This document shows, one piece after another, positions 3,339-23,359 of a stretch of 64,000 bases of DNA (its first letter is position 1; each line of letters begins with the position of its first letter). The stretch comes from Nitrospirota bacterium. Its GTDB lineage: Bacteria > Nitrospirota > Nitrospiria > Nitrospirales > Nitrospiraceae. Under the pieces are notes generated by a model that was not told the DNA's origin, searched no databases, and saw only the letters and a list, made by a program, of their open reading frames with translations. The position numbers were made by a program, and so were the translations under genes. The stretch covers positions 248,001-312,000 of the forward strand of contig SCVN01000016.1 of assembly GCA_004296885.1 (NCBI GenBank), in the 5' to 3' direction.

Positions 3339-3531
3339 CGGGCTGTTGAAAAAAGCAGCCAGCTTTGTTCTCGCCTCGCTGTCTGCCTTTTTGAGCGGGC
3401 TGTCATATTAAAAAGGCTCCCGACTCCTTTGCTGCTCTCCCGACTGATGACGGAGGGCCGCCCGCGTCCGGTTCCGCGCTTCGCCATAAACGAGGTCGCG
3501 AGGTTGCTGAGCTAACTCAGAGGCCCGAAGC
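3339..3531. repeat. Intergenic stretch with a degenerate dispersed-repeat-like motif
   Basis: No gene is seen here. It begins with GGGCTGTTGAAAAAAGCAGC, and a related string (GATGTTGAAAAGTCCGCC) occurs at about 6538-6555 upstream of the ferredoxin-thioredoxin reductase gene. The shared GTTGAAAA core followed by a GC-rich block suggests two worn copies of a dispersed intergenic repeat. This is pattern recognition from two copies only. Confidence 0.35.
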
Positions 3532-4350
3532 ATGAACACCGAGGCGTTCATCAGGCTGTCCGCATTCGTGGGTATATTGGGCGTCATGGCCTCATGGGAG
3601 ATCATGAGCCCGCGCCGCCGGTTGACGACCTCCAAGGTGCGACGCTGGGCGGCGAATCTCTCGATCGTCGCGCTGAACACGTTGGTCATCCGGGTGCTGT
3701 TCGCAAGTGGGGCGGTGGGCATGGCGCTTGTGGCTGCCGAGCGGGGCTGGGGTCTGCTGAACCGCCTCGACGTGCCGGCTTGGTTTGAAGTCCTGCTGGC
3801 GGTGATGGCCCTGGATTTGGCGCTCTATCTTCAACACGTCATGTTTCATGCGGTGCCTGCGCTCTGGCGCTTCCACATGATGCACCATGCGGACCTGGAC
3901 GTGGATGTGACGACCGGGGCTCGGTTTCATCCTGTCGAGGTCTCACTCTCGATGCTGATCAAACTGGCGGCGGTGGTGGTGATTGGTGCGGCGCCGGCGG
4001 CGGTGCTGGCTTTCGAAGTGCTGCTCAATGCCACGGCGATGTTCAACCACAGCAATGTGTGGATGCCTCAGCCGGTGGATCGGTTTCTTCGATGGGTCGT
4101 GGTCACCCCTGACATGCATCGCATCCATCATTCGATCCTTCCGCGGGAGACGAATACGAACTTCGGTTTCAACCTGCCCTGGTGGGACCGGTTGCTGGGC
4201 ACGTACCGGGCGGCGCCTTCGCTTGGGCAGGAAGGTATGACGCTCGGCTTGGAGCAGTTTCGTGACCCGATGCGATTGGGGTTGGGCGGGATGCTTGCGC
4301 TCCCCTTTACGGGCGATCCGGGTCACTACCCATTGAGTCGAAGGGAGTGA
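3532..4350 (+). CDS. Sterol desaturase / fatty acid hydroxylase family protein
   Basis: A 272-residue integral membrane di-iron oxygenase. The histidine clusters of the fatty-acid hydroxylase superfamily are present in order: HVMFH (HX3H), HMMHH (HX2HH) and, after further membrane segments, HRIHH. At least four hydrophobic segments surround them. Such enzymes hydroxylate or desaturate lipid substrates in the cytoplasmic membrane using molecular oxygen. The substrate cannot be told from sequence and could be a sterol, hopanoid, carotenoid or fatty acid. The gene stands alone, between the degenerate repeat and the DsrE-like gene. Confidence 0.9.
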   Translation: MNTEAFIRLSAFVGILGVMASWEIMSPRRRLTTSKVRRWAANLSIVALNTLVIRVLFASGAVGMALVAAERGWGLLNRLDVPAWFEVLLAVMALDLALYLQHVMFHAVPALWRFHMMHHADLDVDVTTGARFHPVEVSLSMLIKLAAVVVIGAAPAAVLAFEVLLNATAMFNHSNVWMPQPVDRFLRWVVVTPDMHRIHHSILPRETNTNFGFNLPWWDRLLGTYRAAPSLGQEGMTLGLEQFRDPMRLGLGGMLALPFTGDPGHYPLSRRE

Positions 4351-4401
4351 TGCCGCCGGCTCTTGCCATCGGCCCATCAATAAAGAACAGCGAGGTCTGG
4401 C

Positions 4402-4755
4402 ATGAAAATCCTGTTCATTGTCAATGATGCGCCCTACGGATCCGAAAAACTCTATAACGCCCTTCGGCTCGCGATGAAGTTACAACAGGAGCAGGTCGAT
4501 GCCGAGGTTCGAGTCTTTCTGATGGCGGATGCCGTCACCGCTGCGTTGCCCGGTCAGACCACGCCCCAGGGGTATTACAACGTCGAGCGGATGCTCAAGG
4601 CCGTTGCGAATAAGGGCGGGCAGGTCAAAGCTTGCGGGACCTGCGTAGAGGCCCGCGGATTGGAGAGGCTCGGTCTCATCGAGGGCGTTGCCGTCAGCAC
4701 CATGAGCCAGTTGGCCCAATGGGTCGTGGATTCGGACCGGGTGCTGACCTTCTGA
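4402..4755 (+). CDS. DsrE/DsrF-like (YchN fold) small protein
   Basis: A 117-residue soluble protein with the DsrE-like fold signature: an N-terminal strand (KILFIVNDAPYGSEK), a VRVFLMADAV strand and a late CGTCVEARG segment followed by STMSQLAQWV. Proteins of this fold bind or relay sulfur through a reactive Cys, and the two Cys in ACGTC are candidates. No dsr operon or partner subunit is nearby, so it is probably a stand-alone DsrE-type protein. A GAGGTC box precedes the ATG. The gene converges with the M28 peptidase gene, leaving only four bases between their stops. Confidence 0.85.
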   Translation: MKILFIVNDAPYGSEKLYNALRLAMKLQQEQVDAEVRVFLMADAVTAALPGQTTPQGYYNVERMLKAVANKGGQVKACGTCVEARGLERLGLIEGVAVSTMSQLAQWVVDSDRVLTF

Positions 4756-4759
4756 TCGC

Positions 4760-6079
4760 TCAAAGTAGAAAACAAACAGGCAGGTCGGCCAGCAAGCACT
4801 GCATCCGGATGGAGAGCCGTTCCAGTCTGGTGATGTCCTCCGGCTTGGGCGAGCGGGGATCGAAGGTCTTCAGCCAATCTGCGTCCCGTTGCATGGCCCG
4901 GCGTGAGAGCCACGACGTGCCGGGAATGTCACGGCCCCGCTCGGCTGCCTGGACGGCGAGGGGCTGCAGGGTCGCCACCTCGTCGGCCAACTCCATTCGG
5001 TTCGCGTCGAACCGGTAGCGCTCCCGATCCTGGTCGATGATGGAGAGCAATCGCTGAAGCCAGCGAACCGTGGCCGCCATCCGTTCGTAGTGCAGCGTCT
5101 CAGGCAAGTCGGTGGGCTGGTGATAGCGCGGGGTCCGTCCGCTGGACAGGAACAGAAACGGCACTGAGGCGTTGCGGAACGCATCGTAGTCGCTGAACGG
5201 CACGTGGCCGACCAGCGGGAGTTCTTCGATCAGATGCAGACCGAGCGGGAGAACGGTGAGGGGCGACGCGGTGACATGGCGACACGGCGACCGGGCTTGC
5301 CCCGCGTCACCCCGTCTCCCCTTCTCCGCGTCGGGCACGCCTTCCACCTCGTGGCTGGAACATGAAGCGGCCTCCTTGAGGCGGCGGTAGAGCCCCTGGC
5401 TCTTCTCCGCTCCCGCCGCAAAGACCATCTCGCGCATGGGTTCCCAATAGACGCCGCCCATGAGGTCCATGATGACGACGGCCTGGATCGCGTCGAGGGA
5501 GCCGATCTCTTGCGGAAGGTGATCGGCAAAATACTGCGAGCCCATCTGGGGGGTGCGGATATAGGGCGGTTCCTCGGCATTGAAGGCGGCGAACAGGACA
5601 TGATGGTGACGGAGCGCCGGCAGGGATCGGGCCAGCTCGATCAGGATCGCCACGCCCGAGGCATTGTCGTCAGCGCCGAGATGGGCCCCGCCCAAGTGGT
5701 CATAGTGGGCGCCCACTATGATGTACGGGGCTTGTGCGGCGACTGTGGTCGCCGGCTTGAGGCCGAGCAGGTTGTCGCCCAATTGGGCCGGCAGGCCCTG
5801 TCCGTAGCCACCCAGTGACGACAAAGGGATCAGCCCTGCTTCCTGAAAGCGGGTCCTGATGTAGTCCGCCGCGGTCCGGTTGCCCTGCGTGCCCGGCTTG
5901 CGGCCCTGAAGGGAGGGATCGGCCAGGGAGCGGACGTGGCTGTGTAAGGTTTTGGCTTGGTCGCTGGTGATCGGAAGGCTGGAAGGCTCGACTGGTTGCA
6001 TGGCCCCCAGTGATGTGAGCAGGAGGGAGCCGATGCACAGACCTGCGGCTCCTCGGAGAAGCATCGCGCGATGGGTCAA
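4760..6079 (-). CDS. M28 family zinc metallopeptidase, exported
   Basis: A 439-residue exported aminopeptidase-like protein with an N-terminal signal segment (about residues 5-28). The co-catalytic zinc site of family M28 is complete: H125 in GAHYDHLG, D137 in GADDNASG, the Glu pair in NAEE (169-170), D205 in IMDLMGG and H320 in YHQPTD. Residues about 249-277 are a Gly/Arg/Ala/Pro-rich insert that does not look like peptidase sequence. It coincides with repetitive GGTGACA-type DNA at about 5250-5335 that stays in frame. The chosen TTG start overlaps the stop of the upstream ferredoxin-thioredoxin reductase gene (TTGA); an ATG five codons in is an alternative. Confidence 0.88.
   Translation of the reverse strand: MTHRAMLLRGAAGLCIGSLLLTSLGAMQPVEPSSLPITSDQAKTLHSHVRSLADPSLQGRKPGTQGNRTAADYIRTRFQEAGLIPLSSLGGYGQGLPAQLGDNLLGLKPATTVAAQAPYIIVGAHYDHLGGAHLGADDNASGVAILIELARSLPALRHHHVLFAAFNAEEPPYIRTPQMGSQYFADHLPQEIGSLDAIQAVVIMDLMGGVYWEPMREMVFAAGAEKSQGLYRRLKEAASCSSHEVEGVPDAEKGRRGDAGQARSPCRHVTASPLTVLPLGLHLIEELPLVGHVPFSDYDAFRNASVPFLFLSSGRTPRYHQPTDLPETLHYERMAATVRWLQRLLSIIDQDRERYRFDANRMELADEVATLQPLAVQAAERGRDIPGTSWLSRRAMQRDADWLKTFDPRSPKPEDITRLERLSIRMQCLLADLPVCFLL
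5250..5335. repeat. GGTGACA-type short repeat block inside the M28 gene
   Basis: On the + strand, short related units (GCGGTGACA, TGGCGACA, CGGCGACC) run one after another. They are followed by an inverted counterpart (GCGTCACC, CCGTCTCC), giving a partly palindromic block. The style resembles heptanucleotide repeats (STRRs) known from intergenic regions of several bacteria. Here the block lies within the reading frame of the M28 peptidase, between the fourth zinc ligand and the last. Confidence 0.55.
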
Positions 6080-6639: not shown

Positions 6640-9600
6640 ATGACGGACGCTGCGTTCCCAAATGAGATGACCGAACGTCTGCTGGCGCGCCTGGCCTGGG
6701 TCCTGGACCGGTCCGCCGCCACGGAGCTGGCCGCCAAACTGGCCCGGGCCGGTGCCGTGCCGACCGTCCTGAGCCTCTTCGACGAATTGGCCGACACTTC
6801 CGCGAAGGTGACGCAAGGGGCGATCGAGGCCTTGCCCGAATTGGACCGGCGGGGGGCCTTGGGCTCGGTGGTCCCCTGGCTGGACCTGGGCGTGGCGCTA
6901 GCCGGTTCGTCCGGCGCCGTGGCCATGAAATATTTCAAGGAAAGCCCATTGCTGCTCGGATTGATCGAAACGGAACCGGCCCGCCTGCAGGCGCTCGAAC
7001 TGGCTTTGGAGTTGGCGGACAGCGACGTCAACGTCGCGCTGGAGTTCGTCCGCAAGTCGCCGGAGTTGCTGACGGTTCTTCCGGCCGAACGACTGTCCGC
7101 CTGGGCCGAGGTCGGCATGGAGCTGGCCCGCGTGGACTTTGTCCTGGGCATCGAATTTCTCCGCCAGAGCCCGGCGCTCGCGGCGGTGATCCCGCTGGAT
7201 CAGGTGCGCGCCTGGGTCGGGTTCGGGATGAAGCTGATCGCGCAGAACAGCCTGGGCAAGACCGACTATGTGGGCACGTTGGAGTTTTTCCGCACCAGCC
7301 CGATGATCCTGGGCGATGTGCCGGAGGTGGCGGTGCGGGCCTTGGTGGTGCAGATGGGCTCGGTGCTGGCCGATCGCGCCCCGGAGACGGCGATTGCCTT
7401 TCTGGCCGAGTCCCCGGCGCTCTTGCGGCGGATGCCCGATGAGGCCTGGCGGCTCCGCTGTCTCCAGTATGGGCTGCTGGTCGGCGAACGCGATGCGGAA
7501 GCAGCCCTGGCTTACTGGCGGCGCTGTCCGGACATCCTGGCCCTGATCGGCGAGACCGAAGAAGCGCGCGACAAGTTCGAACAATGGTATCGGGGTGGGA
7601 TGGAGGTGCTGGGCTACAGCGTCGAAGGCGCGCGGGCCTACTTTGCGCTGGAGACGAAGAAGGCGCTCGCGTCGGTGACGCAGGCGATGAGCGGCGTGCC
7701 GTTGCGGCAGATCGCCCGGTCGTTGAAGTTGTTCGCCCAGGGACTCTGCGGGACCGATGTCACGATCCGCTCGCTCCCCGACACGGCCGAGGAGCCGGCC
7801 AAGGGACCGGGCCGGGCGCAGGTCAGCGCCGATGGGCGGACGATTGTCCTGCCGGCGATCCTGCGCCGCTACGACAAGCGAGAAGACAACGTCCGGCTCT
7901 ACACGGTGATGACGGCGCACGAGGCGGGGCACCTGGAGTTCGGCACCTATGCGCTCTCGCTGGAGCCCCTGGCCGACTCGATCGAGGCCCTGCGCCTGCG
8001 GTACGGGCGAACCGGCATTCCGGTCAGCCTCGCCGAGGTCTTTGCCCTCTATCCGCAGCCGGGGCTGATCCGCGACTTGTGGACCTTGCTGGAAGATGCG
8101 CGGGTCGAGTACCTGCTCCAGCTCGAGTATCCGGGGCTCAAGCGGGATCTGGCGGCGCTGGCGCGGGACGCGGCCACGACTCGGTCGCTGTTGCACGGGA
8201 TGACGGTGCGGGAGATGGTCGTGGATGCCCTGTTGCTCCTCTCCACGCAGGAGCGGGATTCCTTCCGGATTCCGGAGGCGATTGCCGACGTGGTGGATCG
8301 GGCCTGGGCTCAGTGCCGGGCCGTCCTCGATCCAGGCGCCACAGCCGAAGATGCGGTGCGGTTGGCGGATCGGGTCTACGTTCTGTTGGAGGAAGAGCTG
8401 GCAGCCAGGCAACAGCCGACTGGGGATGGGGGCGCTTCCGACTCGCAAGCGGACCTCGGACCTGGGCCGACGGCATCCGAAGAGACGGAGGGCGCCTACC
8501 GGCCGGTGACGAATTGGACCTATCGTGGCGAGATGAACCCTGAGTGGGTCACGAACCGGGACACAGGAGGGGACCGACAGGAAGAGCATCCGCAGGGCCT
8601 GACCTTCGCCTCAGCCGAGGCGCTGGTGCGCAGCGGGGCAGCGGGCGGGCAGTCGCAGGGGGCGCAGCAACGCGAGCTGACGTCCGAGGGGATGGGCCGA
8701 GGACGGGACCCTGGTTCGGTGATGGAGGAGATGCTGGCGGTCGAGGAAGGCCGGGCCGGGGCTGAGCCGGTTGAGTTGGCCCGGCATCACGCGTTTCTCT
8801 ACGACGAGTGGGACGGGCTTATCCAGGATTACCGCCAGGGCTGGTGCCGGGTGATCGAGCGGATGGGCCCGGAAGGGACCTCGGATTTTGCCGAAGCCAC
8901 GCTGGCGGCCCATGGGGCGTCGGTCCGGCTGCTCCGTCGGTACTTCGAAGCGCTCCGTCCGCCCGGGTTGCGGCGGGTGTCGGGGCAGACGGACGGAGAG
9001 GAATTGGACCTGGACGCGGTGGTCCGCCGCAAGGCCGACCTGGCCGCGGGGGCCGATCCGTCGGATCGGATGTATGTTCGGCGCGAGAAATGCGAGCGGG
9101 ATGTGGCCGCCGCCTTTCTGGTGGACCTGAGCGGGTCCACCAGCAGGCAGATCGAGTCTCACGGCGGGCAGACGCGCCGCGTCATCGACATCGAGAAGGA
9201 AGGGCTGGTGCTGCTGAGCGAGGCCCTCGAGGCGATCGGTGACCGGTATGCCGTCTATGGCTATTCCGGCCAGGGGCGGCGCCAGGTAGACTTCGTTATC
9301 CTGAAGGAGTTCGATGAGCCGGCCAGCATGCGCGTGGCCTCCCGGATCGGCACGGTCGCGCCGCTGCAGCAGAACCGGGACGGGGCGGCCATCCGCCACG
9401 CGACCCGCAAGCTGCTGGCCCAGCCGGCGAAGGTCCGGCTGCTGGTGCTGCTGAGCGACGGCAAGCCTCTTGACGAGGGCTACACGGACGAGTACTCCTT
9501 GGAGGATACGAAAGCGGCCTTGCGCGAGGCGCGCATGAAGGGCCTCGACCCCTTCTGCATCACCGTGGATCGCGCGGCCGACGATTATCTCAAGCGGATG

Positions 9601-16455: not shown

Positions 16456-16493
16456 GGACCGTCCGACACAGCTCCGAATAGGACGTGCCTCGC

Positions 16494-17786
16494 ATGACGC
16501 AACTGCCTGACGATCAGTCGGCTCTTTTCCCACAGGACGATGACGAGGTGGACGCCTCGGCCCCCCTGGCCGAACGGATGAGGCCGAGGGACTTTGCCGA
16601 GTTCGTCGGGCAGGAAGAGATCATCGCCCAGGACCGGCCCCTCCGCCGGGCCATCGAGTCCGATTCCCTCACCTCGGTCATCCTCTGGGGGCCGCCCGGC
16701 TCAGGCAAGACGACCCTGGCCCGATTGATCGCACGGCGCACCAAGGCAGCCTTCGTGTTCTTCTCCGCGGTCACCGGCGGCATTCCCGAACTGCGGCGTC
16801 TCATCAAAGAGGCAGAAGAACGAAGGACGCGGCGCAAGCAGCGGACGATCCTGTTCGTGGACGAAATTCACCGGTTCAACAAGGCCCAGCAGGATGCCTT
16901 TCTGCCCCACGTGGAGAAGGGAACGGTGATTCTGTTGGGGGCCACGACGGAGAACCCTTCCTTCGAAGTGATCTCTCCGTTATTGTCACGCTCCATGGTC
17001 GTGGTGCTGCAATCCCTCTCCGACGAGGCCATGGGGCAGATACTGGATCGGGCCCTAGCCGACCCAGAGCGGGGCCTGGGCCAATTCAAGGCGGCCCTGT
17101 CCCAGGAAGCGCGCCGGCGCTTGGTCGGATTCGGCAACGGGGATGCGCGGGCCGCCCTGACCGCGCTCGAATTCGTGGTGACCCAGACGAAGCCAGGACC
17201 GGATGGCCGTGTGCTGGTGGATGAAGCGGTTCTGGATGTGGCGCTGCTCAAGAAAGCGCTCCGGTACGATCGGGCCGGGGAAGAACATTACAACCTGATC
17301 TCGGCCTACATCAAAAGCATGAGGGACTCAGACCCGGACGGGGCGCTCTACTGGCTGGCGCGGATGTTGGAAGGAGGGGAGGACCCAAAGTTCATCGCGA
17401 GGCGGATGGTGATCTTTGCGTCGGAAGACGTCGGCAACGCCGATCCCCAGGCCCTACTGATCGCTACGGCCGTCTTTCACGCAGTGGAGTTCGTCGGCCT
17501 GCCCGAAGCGCAGATCAATCTGGCGCAAGGGACGACGTACCTCGCCACCAGGCCGAAGGACAATGCCTCCTATGCAGGCTTGCTGGAAGCGGTGCAGGAT
17601 GCGAGGGAGTGGGGGAATTTGCCCGTGCCGCTGCACCTGCGCAACGCGGTCACGTCGCTGATGAAGGATTTGGGCTACGGGAAGGGCTACCGATACGTCC
17701 ACGAGGACCCGGCAGCCAAGAAGGAGCAGGGCCACCTGCCGGAACAACTGAAGGGGAAGCACTACTACAAGCCGAAGAAACAGTAG
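16494..17786 (+). CDS. rarA: Replication-associated recombination protein A (RarA/MgsA)
   Basis: A 430-residue AAA+ ATPase of the RarA (MgsA/WRNIP1) family, which acts at stalled replication forks with SSB and RecA. Walker A is GPPGSGKTT and Walker B is ILFVDEIHRFNKAQQD, the latter almost diagnostic of the family. ATTENPSFEV is the sensor 1 region. The C-terminal half holds the tetramerisation domain (HYNLISAYIKSMRDSDPDGALYWLARMLEGGED). The ATG at 16494 with AGGA about ten bases upstream is preferred to the GTG at 16485. The integron cassette array starts about 100 bases after its stop. Confidence 0.95.
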   Translation: MTQLPDDQSALFPQDDDEVDASAPLAERMRPRDFAEFVGQEEIIAQDRPLRRAIESDSLTSVILWGPPGSGKTTLARLIARRTKAAFVFFSAVTGGIPELRRLIKEAEERRTRRKQRTILFVDEIHRFNKAQQDAFLPHVEKGTVILLGATTENPSFEVISPLLSRSMVVVLQSLSDEAMGQILDRALADPERGLGQFKAALSQEARRRLVGFGNGDARAALTALEFVVTQTKPGPDGRVLVDEAVLDVALLKKALRYDRAGEEHYNLISAYIKSMRDSDPDGALYWLARMLEGGEDPKFIARRMVIFASEDVGNADPQALLIATAVFHAVEFVGLPEAQINLAQGTTYLATRPKDNASYAGLLEAVQDAREWGNLPVPLHLRNAVTSLMKDLGYGKGYRYVHEDPAAKKEQGHLPEQLKGKHYYKPKKQ

Positions 17787-17909
17787 CGTGCGACAACTTG
17801 ATAATGGCCGGATTTCCTCCTAGACTCACCTTTCGGTAGGCTGCGTAGGTCCCTGGCTATGCTGGATAGCTTGCAGCACAGTTAATGGTTATGCATCAGA
17901 GGACATCGC

Positions 17910-18539
17910 GTGACGCAAGCGGATACTACGGTTGACTATTACCACATTAACCGCCGTGCGGCATGGGCGCCGTATCAGTTTCTACAAGCGGGTTCCATCT
18001 TAGACGTCGGTGGAACCACCAATCCCTATTTTGCATTCTTCGAGAACCACAAGAAAACCTATCCGGTGACCCAACGGGATGGTTCAACCATCAACGTTTC
18101 GGGCGTTAGGTTTCTCGGCGCAGTGGCAAATGACGAAGTGAATTCCACAGCCCTACCGGGAATCGCGCATGATCTCGCCAAGCATCTCGTTGCGTTTCTC
18201 AGAGAGCTTATATGGGAGGACGTGAGGCGCAAGGAGTTTCCTCATCTGCCGTCACGCCAGCGATGCATCTGGTTAATACCTTCACTTGCGGGCGTACGGT
18301 ATTGGCTGAAGAGGATGGAAGTGGCGGCAGATTTCCAAGTGTTACGTCTTCATGTACAAGGCCGAATCCACACTGCCAGCGAAACTCATCTCCTCGGCGA
18401 TAGTGAGTCGTTGAATACCGCAATCCAAATGGCGCGCCAATATTGGTTGGGTATCGTCGAGAGCATCGAGACGCAGGAAACCATCTTCGAAGGGCGCGTG
18501 CACGTTTTAGAAGTAGTCAAAGAAGCGGAGTATGCATAA
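17910..18539 (+). CDS. Cassette 1: hypothetical protein, 209 aa
   Basis: A 209-residue soluble protein of unknown function. The N-terminus (VDYYHINRRAAWAPYQFLQAGSILDVGG) and the middle (SRQRCIWLIP, then FQVLRLHVQGRIHTAS) recall, from memory only, the DUF2441 family, whose members begin with a YHV-type motif and have a later SR..S(I/L)W(L/F) strand. That link is tentative. The GTG start at 17910 has AGAGGA seven bases upstream. The TAA stop at 18537 lies inside the GCATAAC that opens attC1. GC content is clearly lower than in rarA. Function cannot be assigned; cassette genes are often involved in defence or environmental adaptation. Confidence 0.75.
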   Translation: MTQADTTVDYYHINRRAAWAPYQFLQAGSILDVGGTTNPYFAFFENHKKTYPVTQRDGSTINVSGVRFLGAVANDEVNSTALPGIAHDLAKHLVAFLRELIWEDVRRKEFPHLPSRQRCIWLIPSLAGVRYWLKRMEVAADFQVLRLHVQGRIHTASETHLLGDSESLNTAIQMARQYWLGIVESIETQETIFEGRVHVLEVVKEAEYA

Positions 18540-18591
18540 CCAGCTGCTTGCCCCGACGCGGTTCCCGCGCGGGCTGGCGGGGCGTTTAGTC
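18534..18591 (+). other. attC site 1
   Basis: It runs from GCATAAC to the core GTTTAGTC. Inside, GCCCCG pairs with CGGGGC and CGCGG pairs with CCGCG around a TTC loop, so the single strand folds into an imperfect hairpin. The first seven bases are the exact reverse complement of GTTATGC at 17888. The core carries one extra T compared with the usual GTTRRRY. Confidence 0.75.
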
Positions 18592-18594
18592 GGC

Positions 18595-19407
18595 ATGATG
18601 CCAAGTCCAGAGGGAGATCAAGAGCGGCTCTTCTTCCAGCCTGTGAAAGAGGACAGGGGCTGGTACTTTGTCGAATATCGCCCACCGATTTCTGGCTACC
18701 AGTTTGCAACTCTCCAGCTTGTGATCCTCGAAAAGGCGAAAAGGCTGGAGGAGATTGCCGCTTCAATGGAAGCAGAGTTGGTGATTTGGTTGGAGCGCTA
18801 TCCCATTCCGATCATGGCCTCGGCCTTTGATGACAGCGGAGACCTCGTAAGACTGGAGAAGAACCAAGGATGCAATCACGTAATCGGATACATCGATGAG
18901 CAGAAACACAAGGTCGTTCATGAATGGCGCTTACTTACGAACGAAGAACTGCCCAGGGATGCGCTTGACACGTCTTACCTGCGCAAAATCTACTCCCAGA
19001 TTCCCTTTAAAACCAAGCAGCAACTTCGGGAAGAGGCCCAACAGAAAGCAAAGCACCTGCGGCTTGGATGGTGGATCGTATTCGTTTGGGCCGTGGTTGT
19101 TCCCGCGGGCGTCGCGATTCTGGAGTGGTGGAGTGACTGGCTAGGCGTGGTGGTATTGCTATACAGCCTTTACAAGGCCATAGAAAAGGCACTGCGACTT
19201 ACGGGCAAATGGCCAAAGTCGAAGGCAGAAATAGAAAAAGAAGCGGAAGAAGCCAGAATGCGCCACCATCACTACCATTGTGAGTGCAATCCCGCGGGCT
19301 TCGAACGCTTAAAAGTGGAGAATTTCGAACGCTGGGCGCGCGAAGACATCCGCCAAGAAGCTCTATCGCTAAAGCGATCGTCGAAGCATGATGCAAATGA
19401 CGACTAA
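18595..19407 (+). CDS. Cassette 2: two-helix membrane protein, 270 aa
   Basis: A 270-residue protein of unknown function. The first 160 residues are soluble and mixed in structure (DRGWYFVEYRPPISGYQFATLQL in the N-terminal part, a long helix after it). Two membrane helices lie at about 165-184 and 188-206 (WWIVFVWAVVVPAGVAIL, then WLGVVVLLYSLYKAI). A charged C-terminal segment includes HHHYHCEC. I start it at the ATG at 18595, directly after attC1; an ATG follows at 18598. An upstream in-frame ATG at 18532 would place the attC hairpin in the coding region and is unlikely. No clear ribosome site is present, which is common for cassette genes. The TAA stop lies in attC2. Confidence 0.72.
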   Translation: MMPSPEGDQERLFFQPVKEDRGWYFVEYRPPISGYQFATLQLVILEKAKRLEEIAASMEAELVIWLERYPIPIMASAFDDSGDLVRLEKNQGCNHVIGYIDEQKHKVVHEWRLLTNEELPRDALDTSYLRKIYSQIPFKTKQQLREEAQQKAKHLRLGWWIVFVWAVVVPAGVAILEWWSDWLGVVVLLYSLYKAIEKALRLTGKWPKSKAEIEKEAEEARMRHHHYHCECNPAGFERLKVENFERWAREDIRQEALSLKRSSKHDANDD

Positions 19408-19463
19408 CCCCTTAATGCAACCGATTGGCCGCAAGTGGTTGGCGGTTGTCAAGAACGTTAGAG
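19402..19463 (+). other. attC site 2
   Basis: It runs from GACTAAC to core GTTAGAG, 62 bases. CAACCG pairs with CGGTTG, flanking an inner TTGGCC/GGTTGG region, giving the typical imperfect hairpin. Its first bases (GACTAA) mirror the TTAGTC that opens cassette 2. Confidence 0.82.
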
Positions 19464-19469
19464 CGTACT

Positions 19470-20240
19470 ATGGCCTACACAGTAAGTGATGAGTTCGGCG
19501 CAAATGCCTGTAAGCACTGCGCCCCTATGTTCATCATCAGGCAGCACATCGAAATGACGCCTACGGCGGACGATCCGAGCGCCACCCTTACTTTCATCAA
19601 AGTCCATGGCCGCACATACGGCATTACCTGCAAGCATGTTGTTGCTGCCTTGCGCGATCGAATAGAGAAGTCAGGCAGCGAGTTCTCGCACACGTTTTTC
19701 ATTGCCTTAAAACGGCACCATGTGGTTCAAGATCGTTTTGTGATTCCGCCCGGAGACTGGGTCACGCCTGAACCAGACATCGCCATCCGGGAACTCAGTC
19801 CGGAATTCCCGGCGTATGTCGGGAAGTTGGCAATCGACATTGAGGCAGCCCCTATTCGCCCCCTTTCAGAAGTTGCGTTTGCAATCGCAGTTGGCTTCCC
19901 AGACCGACTAAAAACACAAAGTCCCACACCGCTCGGTTATCAGTTGGCCATGCCCTGCGTTCACGCTGCCGCAGACAACCATTCAGGCTTCGGTCCGTCC
20001 TTTACACTCTATAGCGAACTGCAAGAAACGCCGGCTATTCGAAATCTGAGCGGCATGAGCGGAGGTCCCATTTATTGGAGCAACGACACCAGCTACGGAT
20101 TGCTTGGAATCACCTATGAATCATCACCGCTGGACGGATCGCTTGCGGGTACAGCCGCGGTGCATATCAAGGGCCACCTCGCTGATCGTGCCACTATTGA
20201 GCGTTGGGTGTCTCACGTGCCGCACCTATATGCGCTCTAA
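19470..20240 (+). CDS. Cassette 3: trypsin-like serine protease, 256 aa
   Basis: A 256-residue protein with a complete chymotrypsin-fold catalytic triad: His56 in YGITCKHVVAA, Asp103 in PDIAIREL and Ser197 in LSGMSGGPIYW. The spacing (47 and 94 residues) fits trypsin-like peptidases. The GxSGGP motif and the following GLLGITYESS strand, which mirrors the GIVS-type strand, support it. No signal peptide is seen, so it should act in the cytoplasm, unlike HtrA proteases. There is no PDZ domain. The ATG at 19470 follows the core site by six bases, and the TAA lies in attC3. Cytoplasmic proteases of this kind occur in some phage-defence modules; a defence role here is speculation. Confidence 0.8.
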   Translation: MAYTVSDEFGANACKHCAPMFIIRQHIEMTPTADDPSATLTFIKVHGRTYGITCKHVVAALRDRIEKSGSEFSHTFFIALKRHHVVQDRFVIPPGDWVTPEPDIAIRELSPEFPAYVGKLAIDIEAAPIRPLSEVAFAIAVGFPDRLKTQSPTPLGYQLAMPCVHAAADNHSGFGPSFTLYSELQETPAIRNLSGMSGGPIYWSNDTSYGLLGITYESSPLDGSLAGTAAVHIKGHLADRATIERWVSHVPHLYAL

Positions 20241-20312
20241 CAACAGGTTCCAGCCGACGGGCTTGCCGGAGCAAAGCGGAGGCGAGACCGTGGCTAAGCC
20301 TGAGCGTTAGGC
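20234..20312 (+). other. attC site 3
   Basis: It runs from GCTCTAAC to core GTTAGGC, 79 bases. AGCC pairs with GGCT, and AGGTT with AAGCCT around it; the sequence CCAGCCGACG and the ending TGAGCGTTAG are very close to those of classical aadA-type attC sites. The first eight bases are the exact reverse complement of GTTAGAGC at the start of cassette 3. Confidence 0.9.
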
Positions 20313-20323
20313 ACAACAAACAT

Positions 20324-20917
20324 ATGCCGCACAAAGAGCGCATCCTGACCAAAGGAAACATTGATGACCTCCTCCGGGAGTATGTCGCTTCCGTTGAAGA
20401 GGTCGGTGCATCTGTTCAGGGTATCAAAGGGCGGGCTCTGCTCGAATCTTTGAAGCGCGAGAAGGTTAACGTCGGCCCATATCCAGATGTAACGTTGTTT
20501 GAGGCCGCGAACCGAATAATGACGGATCTAGTCATTTATAACGGCGTCAAATGGCTTCTGGATAATGATGTCTTTCCGTTTAAGTCATACCACGTCGAGT
20601 TCGGAAATGAAGATTCGAATGGTTTCGACCTTAGGGCGAAAAGTGATAGCGCCAGTCTCATAGGAGAGGCATTTAACGTTGCGCGGTCATTCTTCCAAGG
20701 TAAGAAATCGTCAATGTTAAAGAAACTTCGAAAAAATGGAGAGAAGGCCGATTACCGAATAATCATGGTAAACCATGATGCCGTGGCAGATGGGTATTCG
20801 CCAAACGTAGAACCTGGCGTGTACTACGTTTTCGTCAATGTAGGCACAGCGTCAGCGGCAGTTGTGCCTAACAACGGGTTCCAGGGGACGTCGTCGCTGA
20901 CGCGCCGCTGCCCCTAA
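20324..20917 (+). CDS. Cassette 4: hypothetical protein, 197 aa
   Basis: A 197-residue soluble protein that I do not recognise. It is helical at the start (NIDDLLREYVASVEEV). The middle has YHVEFGNEDSNGFDLRA then SLIGEAFNVARSF. A strand-rich end follows (YRIIMVNHDAV, VEPGVYYVFVNVG). The acidic pattern E, FDL, GEAF could hint at a restriction-endonuclease-like fold, but the catalytic Lys is not where expected, so this is only a thought. The ATG at 20324 lies 12 bases after the core of attC3. The reading frame runs through most of attC4 and stops at 20917, so the last 15 or so residues are encoded by the recombination site. Confidence 0.72.
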   Translation: MPHKERILTKGNIDDLLREYVASVEEVGASVQGIKGRALLESLKREKVNVGPYPDVTLFEAANRIMTDLVIYNGVKWLLDNDVFPFKSYHVEFGNEDSNGFDLRAKSDSASLIGEAFNVARSFFQGKKSSMLKKLRKNGEKADYRIIMVNHDAVADGYSPNVEPGVYYVFVNVGTASAAVVPNNGFQGTSSLTRRCP

Positions 20918-20931
20918 CCCGAGCGTTCGGC
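20866..20931 (+). other. attC site 4
   Basis: It runs from GCCTAAC to core GTTCGGC, 66 bases. GGGTT pairs with AACCC and AGGGG with CCCCT, giving a strong imperfect hairpin with GAGCGTT at the end. GTGCCTAAC (20864-20872) is the exact reverse complement of GTTAGGCAC at the start of cassette 4. The core has C where a purine is usual. It is the last clear attC of the array. Confidence 0.85.
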
Positions 20932-21014
20932 GGGTTTCGGTCATGCCGCCAAGAGCTTAGCGTTACCCCAAGGGCCAACGCTGCTTACAGGTGGGTCGCT
21001 TGATGGTGAGTGTA

Positions 21015-21470
21015 ATGACAAACAGATCTGACTTTGAACAGATGCTTGAGATTGCTCTTGAGGAGGCGCGGAGCGGCCTCTCGGAAGGCGGCATTCCCAT
21101 CGGGGCCGCCCTGTTTCGACGCGACGGGACGCTGCTCGGGCGTGGGCACAATCGGCGAGTCCAGGAGAACGATCCCTCCGTGCACGCCGAGACGGACGCC
21201 TTTCGCAAGGCCGGGCGTCAGCGGAGCTACAAAGACACTATCATGGTGACGACTCTGGCTCCCTGCTGGTATTGCAGCGGCCTCGTCGTTCAGTTCGGCA
21301 TTGGCGCAGTGGTCGTCGGAGAATCCCGCACCTTTGCCGGTGGGATAGACTGGCTGCGGGAACGGGGTATCGAAGTGTTTGACCTCAACTCGGACGCCTG
21401 CCGGCTGATGCTGGCGGAATTCATCACGGCGCATCCTGAGCTGTGGCACGAAGATATTGGGCAGCCTTGA
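21015..21470 (+). CDS. Cytosine/nucleoside deaminase family protein
   Basis: A 151-residue zinc deaminase. The motif HAE in PSVHAETDAF and the PCWYC pair give the three zinc ligands and the catalytic Glu. GGIPIGAALFRRDG is the usual strand before them. The end (FITAHPELWHEDIG) closely recalls yeast-type cytosine deaminase, so cytosine or a related base is a likely substrate. The start is uncertain: ATGs at 21003 and 21015 are both possible. GC content is back to the chromosomal level. It directly follows the cassette array, and I found no proper attC after it, so I do not count it as a cassette. Confidence 0.9.
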   Translation: MTNRSDFEQMLEIALEEARSGLSEGGIPIGAALFRRDGTLLGRGHNRRVQENDPSVHAETDAFRKAGRQRSYKDTIMVTTLAPCWYCSGLVVQFGIGAVVVGESRTFAGGIDWLRERGIEVFDLNSDACRLMLAEFITAHPELWHEDIGQP

Positions 21471-21487
21471 GCGGTTCCGCTCTTTAT
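21469..21487 (+). terminator. Small hairpin terminator after the deaminase gene
   Basis: GAGCG and CGCTC form a 5-bp stem (six if GG/CC closes) over a short GTTC loop, followed by TTTAT. It overlaps the deaminase stop codon and lies between convergent genes. Confidence 0.5.
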
Positions 21488-21517
21488 GACAAGCCGAAAC
21501 AGTCTTCTGCGTGACCG

Positions 21518-23359
21518 TTAGACCGACGCCAGCTTCTTCTTCACGTCTTCCAATTCGTCAGACAGGCTCGACCATTTGGCGGTGAGCCGTTCCAGGTCCT
21601 TTTTCCACCGGTCCTGTTCCTGGTGCAGGTCGTTCCAGCGGGCGATTTCCTTGTACAGCGCCGGGTCGGCCAGCTCCTGTTCCCGGCTCTTGAGGCGGAC
21701 TTCCAGTTCAGCCACTTCCGCCTCGGCCCTGGCCACTTGCTTCTCCAGCCTGGCCTGACTCTTGGTCAGCTCACGACGTTCGCCCGACTTGCTCTTCTCC
21801 GCGACGGGAGGCGGCGCGGGGAGGGCCTTGTTACTCGCCTTGGCCTGTTTCTGCGTCGGCGAGAGGTCGGCCGTGGATTCCTTGATGGACTCCAGCTCCT
21901 GGGCCCGTTTCCACAAGTAGTACTCGTAGTCTCCATAGTAGTCCCGCGCCTTGCCCTCTTCGATCTCCACCACGCGGGTGGCGATGCGCGAGAGGAAGGT
22001 GGGGTCGTGCGAGATGAAGACGATCGTACCGGGAAAGTCGGTCATGGCGTCGGTCAGCACGTCCACCGAGGCCGGGTCGAGGTGGTTGGTCGGTTCGTCC
22101 AGCAGCAGCGTGTTGGCCGGCTCCACCAGCATCCGCGCGAGGGCCACGCGATTCCGCTCCCCGCCGCTCAGGGACTTGATCGGCTTTTTCTGGTCCTGCC
22201 CGGAAAACAGAAAGGCGCCGGCCAGGCCGCGCAGGAAGTTCGTCTCCGCCTGGGTGGAGACTTCGCTCAAGGATTCCAGGATCGTGTGTTCCGGGTTCAG
22301 GGTCTCGGCCTGATGCTGCGCGAAGTAATGGACGGTGGCGCCGTGGCCCACGGTCCTGGTGCCCTTGTCGGGCGGCAGGACTCCAGCCAGCATCTTGAGG
22401 AGCGTGCTTTTCCCCGCCCCGTTTTCCCCCACCAGCGCCACCCGCTGGCCTCGCTCCACCGAAAAATCCAGTGCGCCGTAGACGACGGTGGCGCCATAGC
22501 TCTTGGCCACCCCGCGCAAGTCGAAGACGTGCCGCCCGCTGGCGGGGGGCAGGGGGAACTTGAACCGGACCCGCTTGGCGTCCCGGCCCAGCTCGATGCG
22601 CTTGACCTTTTCCAGTTGCTTGATGCGGGACTGGACCTGGCTGGCCTTGTTGGCCTGGTAGCGGAACCGGTCCACGAACTTCTGGACCCGGGCGATTTCC
22701 TTGGACTGCCGGTTGGCCGCCGCCTCCAACTGCTCGTCGCGCGCGGCCCGCTGCTCCAGAAAACGTGTGTAATTACCCCGGTATTCCTGAATGACGTGGT
22801 CGCGCAAGTCCCAGATGTGCGTGGCGATGCGATCCAGAAAGGCCGTGTCGTGGCTGATGACAAGCAGGGTCATGCCGGAGTTCAGCAGGAACTGCTCGAA
22901 CCAGCGCTGCGTCGGCTTGTCCAGGTGGTTGGTCGGCTCGTCGAGCATCAGCACGTCCGGGTTGGCCAGCAGCAGGTGGGCGAGGGCGACTCGCATGCGA
23001 TAGCCGCCGGAGAGGGCTTCGACCGGCCGGCTGAAATCCGCTTCGCCGAAGCCTAATCCGGACAGGATGCGCTTGGCTTCATGCTCGGGGTACTGGCCCC
23101 GATGGGCCGCGTCCAGCACGGTCTTGCCGGTCAAGGTTTCCAGCTCTTGCGCCAGGTAGCCCACGCGCAGGTGCGGGCGTTTGCGGATCCGGCCCTTGTC
23201 CGGCGAATCCTCCCCGAGGATCATCCGCATGAGCGTGGTCTTGCCGGCCCCGTTGGGACCGACCAAGCCGACTCGCGAGCCCTGGCGCAGGTGCGCGGAG
23301 GCGTCGGTCAGAAGCACCCGGGTGGAAAATTGTTTACTGACGCCTTCGATTTGCAGCAT
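21518..23359 (-). CDS. ABC-F family ATP-binding protein (Uup/YdiF-like)
   Basis: A 613-residue soluble protein with two ABC domains and no membrane segment, the ABC-F arrangement. The first domain has Walker A GPNGAGKTT and signature LSGGYRMRVALA. The second has GENGAGKST and LSGGERNRVALA, with DEPTNHLD after each signature. The linker between them is long and charged. After the second domain comes a Lys/Pro/Ala-rich stretch, then a C-terminal coiled coil (RLEKQVARAEAEVAELEVRL) as in Uup. ABC-F proteins bind ribosomes or protect them; Uup-like members also affect DNA transactions. It converges with the deaminase gene. Confidence 0.93.
   Translation of the reverse strand: MLQIEGVSKQFSTRVLLTDASAHLRQGSRVGLVGPNGAGKTTLMRMILGEDSPDKGRIRKRPHLRVGYLAQELETLTGKTVLDAAHRGQYPEHEAKRILSGLGFGEADFSRPVEALSGGYRMRVALAHLLLANPDVLMLDEPTNHLDKPTQRWFEQFLLNSGMTLLVISHDTAFLDRIATHIWDLRDHVIQEYRGNYTRFLEQRAARDEQLEAAANRQSKEIARVQKFVDRFRYQANKASQVQSRIKQLEKVKRIELGRDAKRVRFKFPLPPASGRHVFDLRGVAKSYGATVVYGALDFSVERGQRVALVGENGAGKSTLLKMLAGVLPPDKGTRTVGHGATVHYFAQHQAETLNPEHTILESLSEVSTQAETNFLRGLAGAFLFSGQDQKKPIKSLSGGERNRVALARMLVEPANTLLLDEPTNHLDPASVDVLTDAMTDFPGTIVFISHDPTFLSRIATRVVEIEEGKARDYYGDYEYYLWKRAQELESIKESTADLSPTQKQAKASNKALPAPPPVAEKSKSGERRELTKSQARLEKQVARAEAEVAELEVRLKSREQELADPALYKEIARWNDLHQEQDRWKKDLERLTAKWSSLSDELEDVKKKLASV

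Follow-up and report, generated by a model that had tools for sequence, protein, structure and literature searches.

Chromosomal integrons without an integrase are a kind already known, and the locus that we describe here, beside the rarA gene of a Nitrospirota bacterium, joins them. An early survey found that nearly one third of intI genes are pseudogenes (PMC2426708). The closest match is the remnant in Treponema phagedenis, where intI is gone while attC sites and cassettes stay at a syntenic locus at which relatives hold an integron; the Treponema intI is oriented as its cassettes are (PMC3607928). At nearly all the loci read in our bacterium's family, intI has this same orientation. However, T. 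phagedenis belongs to another phylum, and in the present case an attI site and a predicted promoter were identified and relatives keep intI stubs at the locus.

In Xanthomonas, an ancestral platform at ilvD has repeatedly lost intI (PMC12444791). The two cases share a fixed chromosomal anchor, an integrase that is often truncated or lost, and arrays that vary between species, whereas here the anchor is rarA, the 3′ end of intI faces the array, and no intact intI is seen at the anchor. Closer in taxonomy, IntegronFinder 2.0 reported two CALINs in Candidatus Nitrospira inopinata, which likewise lie in a Nitrospira and consist of attC sites with no intI beside them; the passage on them gives neither their locus nor an attI (PMC9024848). 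The preliminary description of our locus had judged a CALIN with unrecognised cassette genes in a Nitrospira-like chromosome to be worth describing; an integrase-less array in such a chromosome is not new, given these reported CALINs and the commonness of integrons throughout the family.

The rarA locus is very probably what remains of a resident chromosomal integron after the loss of intI. It offers a sequence-level case of how an integrase-less cassette cluster arises: across four related genomes, intI is wholly lost in two, with one junction, and survives in the others as two different degraded stubs, and the comparison reveals one common array end with different cassettes. Integrons with a reversed integrase, thinly reported in the literature that we searched, abound in the family around Nitrospira, and the locus opens to experiment the question of whether the old cassette promoter continues to drive expression of frozen arrays.

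Four cassettes lie head to tail beside rarA

The window is the whole stretch of 64,000 nucleotides that we analysed (Nitrospirota bacterium, GCA_004296885.1, contig SCVN01000016.1, 248,001-312,000). All coordinates are window positions, and the genome carries our code G000. Four integron cassettes, each with an attC site, occupy 17889-20925, within the interval between rarA and a deaminase gene where the preliminary description had placed them. Their G|TT crossovers fall at 17888, 18584, 19457, 20306 and 20925, and every cassette contains one open reading frame that starts about 10-21 bp past the core.

17889..18584, + strand: cassette 1, 696 bp; core GTTATGC, inverse core GCATAAC, 9-bp match
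18585..19457, + strand: cassette 2, 873 bp; core GTTTAGTC (one extra T), inverse core GACTAAC
19458..20306, + strand: cassette 3, 849 bp; core GTTAGAGC, 9-bp match
20307..20925, + strand: cassette 4, 619 bp; core GTTAGGCACAAC, 12-bp match

Insertion of circular cassettes at attI by IntI would leave each attC matching the core that opens its own cassette, and this pattern shows such insertion here. The 5′ end of each attC is indeed the reverse complement of its own cassette's core, as first described, and the matches sum to 9 + 6 + 9 + 12 = 36 for the four links (the best chain of the scan, 43, includes a chance link of 7). Across 300 shuffled sequences, chains averaged 21, with a 95th percentile of 31 and a maximum of 39. 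By itself, the chain score is good but not overwhelming evidence for an array. With the cassettes drawn as circles, pairing of the outer (R) stem covers 7/7 positions in cassettes 1, 3 and 4; in cassette 2 it covers 4/7 positions as it stands and 7/7 when the extra T of GTTTAGTC is skipped. Counting the extrahelical base, the inner (L) stems of attC 1-4 pair at 6, 7, 6 and 6 of 7 positions.

The array has a GC content of 52.8% compared to 61.9% in its flank, and the AT-richness noted earlier is thus relative to the flank only.

Independent models detect attC sites

We built two covariance models. The first, R1, used 11 attC sites, all from intI-associated arrays in other genera; one of them (L197) adjoins a broken intI, and we trimmed the variable central loops manually. 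The second and broader model, R2, was built from 35 attC sites.

18534..18590, + strand: attC 1; R2 17.9 bits, E 0.025
19402..19463, + strand: attC 2; stem pairing only, inner 7/7, outer 7/7 with one T skipped
20234..20312, + strand: attC 3; R1 E 1.8e-5, R2 E 7.5e-7
20866..20931, + strand: attC 4; R1 E 5.6e-5, R2 E 2e-7

Within the window, R1 matched attC 3 and attC 4, its next match having an E-value of 4.5, and the top three matches of R2 were attC 4, attC 3 and attC 1, followed by one at 1.5. R1 thus recovers two sites strongly and R2 adds a third weakly; attC 2 has the fold of such a site but was not detected: in its linear form, this site had no match with R2. As a control, R2 was run on 40 unrelated genomes; it matched in 12, several of these matches resembling real arrays, and in none of the other 28. 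This independent covariance test is stronger support for the attC sites than the core chain. A regular-expression scan with exact stem rules missed some of the sites, since an attC in linear form pairs with the core of the following cassette. Covariance searches without filters missed long sites and returned chance matches, probably owing to the maximum hit length. An Rfam search returned only tRNAs, and a search of plasmids for attC 3 gave no match.

With at least two attC sites according to our own covariance model and no intI nearby, the locus falls within the IntegronFinder definition of a CALIN. We also considered that the region contains no integron, and that its genes form an ordinary cluster in which the inverted repeats separating them arose by chance. 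The core chain is only moderately unlikely under this reading, since the best shuffle reached 39 compared to 36 for the four links. Yet the matches to an independent attC model, the attI homology described below, the lower GC content and the complete replacement of the genes in relatives all speak against it, leaving it exceedingly improbable; the R1 attC matches and the attI homology together refute it.

The cassette genes are almost private to this genome

17910..18539, + strand: cassette 1 gene, DUF2441 protein, 209 aa; PF10386, E 3e-14
18595..19407, + strand: cassette 2 gene, protein with hydrophobic stretches, 270 aa; no family match
19470..20240, + strand: cassette 3 gene, probable trypsin-like serine protease, 256 aa; motifs, LmuA
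20324..20917, + strand: cassette 4 gene, 197 aa; no family match

The cassette genes are almost confined to this genome. The cassette 1 protein is related to a solved hypothetical protein (2aua), and relatives of its gene occur on a few plasmids. Among 172 genomes of the family, gene 1 has one relative, 69% identical and located on another contig of G001, where an attC-like end is weakly supported; no relative of gene 3 or gene 4 turned up in these 172 genomes. The longer reading frame of cassette 2 and the cassette 4 protein had no match in Pfam, NCBIfam or PADLOC, and no homologue of gene 2 was found on plasmids. By its motifs, TCKHVV and GMSGGP, recognized by eye, the cassette 3 protein looks like a serine protease, with a weak likeness to a defence effector (Lamassu model LmuA, E 2e-6), and its gene could be a defence gene; relatives on Pseudomonas plasmids are annotated as hypothetical. 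Single-sequence structure models of the cassette 3 and 4 proteins were poor, and a fold search with them gave no significant match.

No integron integrase is found in the genome

We searched the whole 3.26-Mb genome with the integron integrase model TIGR02249 and found nothing over its cut-off and nothing at an E-value of 1e-30, which bears out the absence of an integrase first reported for the array. Other kinds of tyrosine recombinase account for the weak matches: two resemble XerC and XerD by their sequence, and two others score lower still. A search of the window for similarity to intI was likewise negative. Assembly of the locus inside a single contig, together with a completeness rating of 100% for the genome, shows that the local absence of intI is real.

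An attI site with a predicted cassette promoter precedes cassette 1

17790..17888, + strand: attI site, by homology to attI downstream of intI in other genomes
17798..17826, + strand: predicted cassette promoter Pc, TTGATA, 17 nt, TAGACT; inside attI

We found that the interval of about 100 bp between rarA and cassette 1 is an attI site. It resembles sequences in G139:C35 (77%, E 2e-13) and G005:C8 (73%, E 5e-9), which are each preceded, at a distance of about 100 bp, by an intI 3′ fragment, and part of the site is matched in G003 (80%, E 4e-12) at the equivalent place after rarA. In another genus of the same family, G151:C2 (L187) has a complete intI, its own cassettes and a different chromosomal stretch, and yet its attI aligns with ours over about 100 bp, with TTGATA-17-TAGACT kept. 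The alignment diverges at G|TT, where the first cassette of each integron starts, which is the behaviour expected of attI. Pc is the sole sigma-70-like site called in 17600-21600; since shuffled sequences are expected to yield 2.3 such sites, its real support is its conservation across the aligned attI sites.

The attI and predicted promoter, overlooked in the preliminary description, are a key part of the locus. Reading it as a CALIN was correct in that the array lacks an integrase, but it is more than an attC cluster: of the components of a complete integron, it has an attI and cassettes bounded by attC sites in the same direction, carries a conserved predicted Pc, and lacks an intI next to attI. 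In other genera, the sites homologous to attI and Pc come directly after a full or partial intI gene, which supports the loss of an integrase from a resident integron.

The same evidence bears on whether an integrase encoded elsewhere placed the cassettes into a chance, attG-like site, at a locus that never had a platform. Experiments have demonstrated insertion of this kind (discussed in PMC12444791), and it would suit the absence of an integrase from both locus and genome. It does not account for an attI with a predicted promoter upstream of cassette 1, where none should be present, or for the remains of intI that G001 and G010 have in this position, and we consider it very unlikely. The presence of attI and the predicted Pc indicates an integron minus its intI, rather than cassettes at chance sites.

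Related genomes carry other remnants between rarA and an ABC-F gene

16485..17786, + strand: rarA (mgsA), left flank; Pfam MgsA_C, 6e-61
20925..20975, + strand: conserved distal array end; 85-90% identity to G010, G003 and G001
20991..21470, + strand: deaminase gene, just beyond the array; PF00383, E 6e-20
21518..23359, - strand: ABC-F ATPase gene, right flank; Pfam ABC_tran, 2e-56

Both flanks of the array are conserved chromosomal genes. The rarA flank was matched in 59 of the 60 family genomes tested, and rarA and the ABC-F gene are convergent neighbours throughout the family. As the preliminary description predicted, relatives have a different or empty locus, with other cassettes, a short gap or unrelated genes. 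Three relatives carry different cassettes in the interval, two of them with broken intI 3′ stubs: G001 has a frameshifted stub a few bases past the rarA stop codon, followed by one cassette and an attC, and G010 has a longer frameshifted stub directly after rarA, with two cassettes and an attC downstream. The third, G003, lacks intI; it carries a portion of this attI, a degenerate attC and different genes, among them an acetyltransferase-like gene and a toxin-antitoxin-like pair. Only about 40 bp separate rarA from the ABC-F gene in G014, and in several genera about 500 bp hold one unrelated gene. The 730-bp gap of G002 contains a toxin-antitoxin-like pair and gave no match in an attC search. 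No intact intI was seen at the rarA locus in the genomes compared. G001 also has a second intI, cut by a contig end (G001:C31, L196, 3-386).

Among 172 genomes, the conserved distal end occurs only at the rarA-locus array ends of G010, G003 and G001, apart from an extra 20-base match in G187. The deaminase gene, which here lies beyond that end, is preceded by an attC-like core in G003, G028 and G061 and may be a former cassette.

These comparisons suggest a sequence of events. The ancestor of this genus and a neighbouring genus would have carried an integron, with intI, attI and cassettes, between rarA and the ABC-F gene, its intI transcribed in the direction of the cassettes and with its 3′ end towards them. 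In the G000 lineage, the comparison of sequences shows that the stretch between the rarA stop codon and the attI edge was deleted, intI with it, while the promoter, attI and array stayed. From then on, there would have been no local enzyme to shuffle the cassettes, and the four are probably co-transcribed, both from the Pc within attI and by transcription that continues out of rarA.

The junction between rarA and attI is common to G000 and G003, so the loss of intI probably predates their split. Despite this common junction, their cassettes differ, indicating that the content of the array changed after intI was lost; unequal loss from a longer array, an integrase then acting in trans, or import could each explain the difference.

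By eye, G000 and G003 have a different attI type at the rarA locus from that of G001 and G010; simple inheritance may therefore be the wrong account of the platform, which could have been exchanged or gained on more than one occasion. The same difference, between related genomes at one place, would also fit an attI-array block that already lacked intI and was imported or swapped through homologous recombination in the flanks, the loss having occurred in another lineage. Flank recombination is further suggested by a degenerate second rarA 3′ end in G010 and by repeated ABC-F 3′ ends in G061. Nevertheless, G003 shares both the attI and the rarA-attI junction, and the distal end is common to two genera, which makes import of such a block rather unlikely, though distinctly less so than insertion at a chance site. 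Loss of intI in place from a resident integron remains our preferred explanation.

The second rarA 3′ end (LKGQRYYKPKPPSA*) lies between the array end and the ABC-F gene of G010 (L139, ~5040-5085). We considered it as a target duplication; it is significant only in G010 and is not claimed for G000. In G061 (L138, ~3500-4420), the ABC-F 3′ end fragments are repeated between rarA and the deaminase gene, and are signs of repeated recombination.

Integrons are common across the family

This locus is ordinary for its family, which is rich in integrons. Across 175 family genomes, intI is matched over the cut-off in 18 and at an E-value of 1e-30 in 34, many of the matches being broken, and R2 matched attC sites in 124 of 172 genomes. 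At nearly all loci read, attC lies on the intI strand, downstream of the intI 3′ end. Leaving aside those at contig ends, about 25 intI fragments retain the 3′ end and attI side without the 5′ part (loci L193, L195, L207-L229, L233, L133 and L139) compared to none with the 5′ end only, a count in which detection may favour the catalytic domain.

The genome itself has a second integrase-less integron, on contig C11 (L202, ~7740-8469), with an attI, one cassette and an attC of 40.1 bits. By eye, its attI is of another type, resembling L180 and L191, and a toxin-antitoxin-like pair follows the attC.

Based on the imbalance among intI fragments and the two integrase-less attI-cassette loci of G000, we tentatively raise a reading that we hold to be somewhat doubtful: that the family's integrons have repeatedly been frozen in one way, by deletion of all or the 5′ part of intI, sparing its 3′ end, attI and promoter, as if expression from Pc were selected and recombination discarded.

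In G018:C48 (L228), three equal copies of an intI 3′ end lie at 639-818, 2468-2647 and 4298-4477, spaced by 1.83 kb, and represent either a tandem repeat or an assembly artefact.
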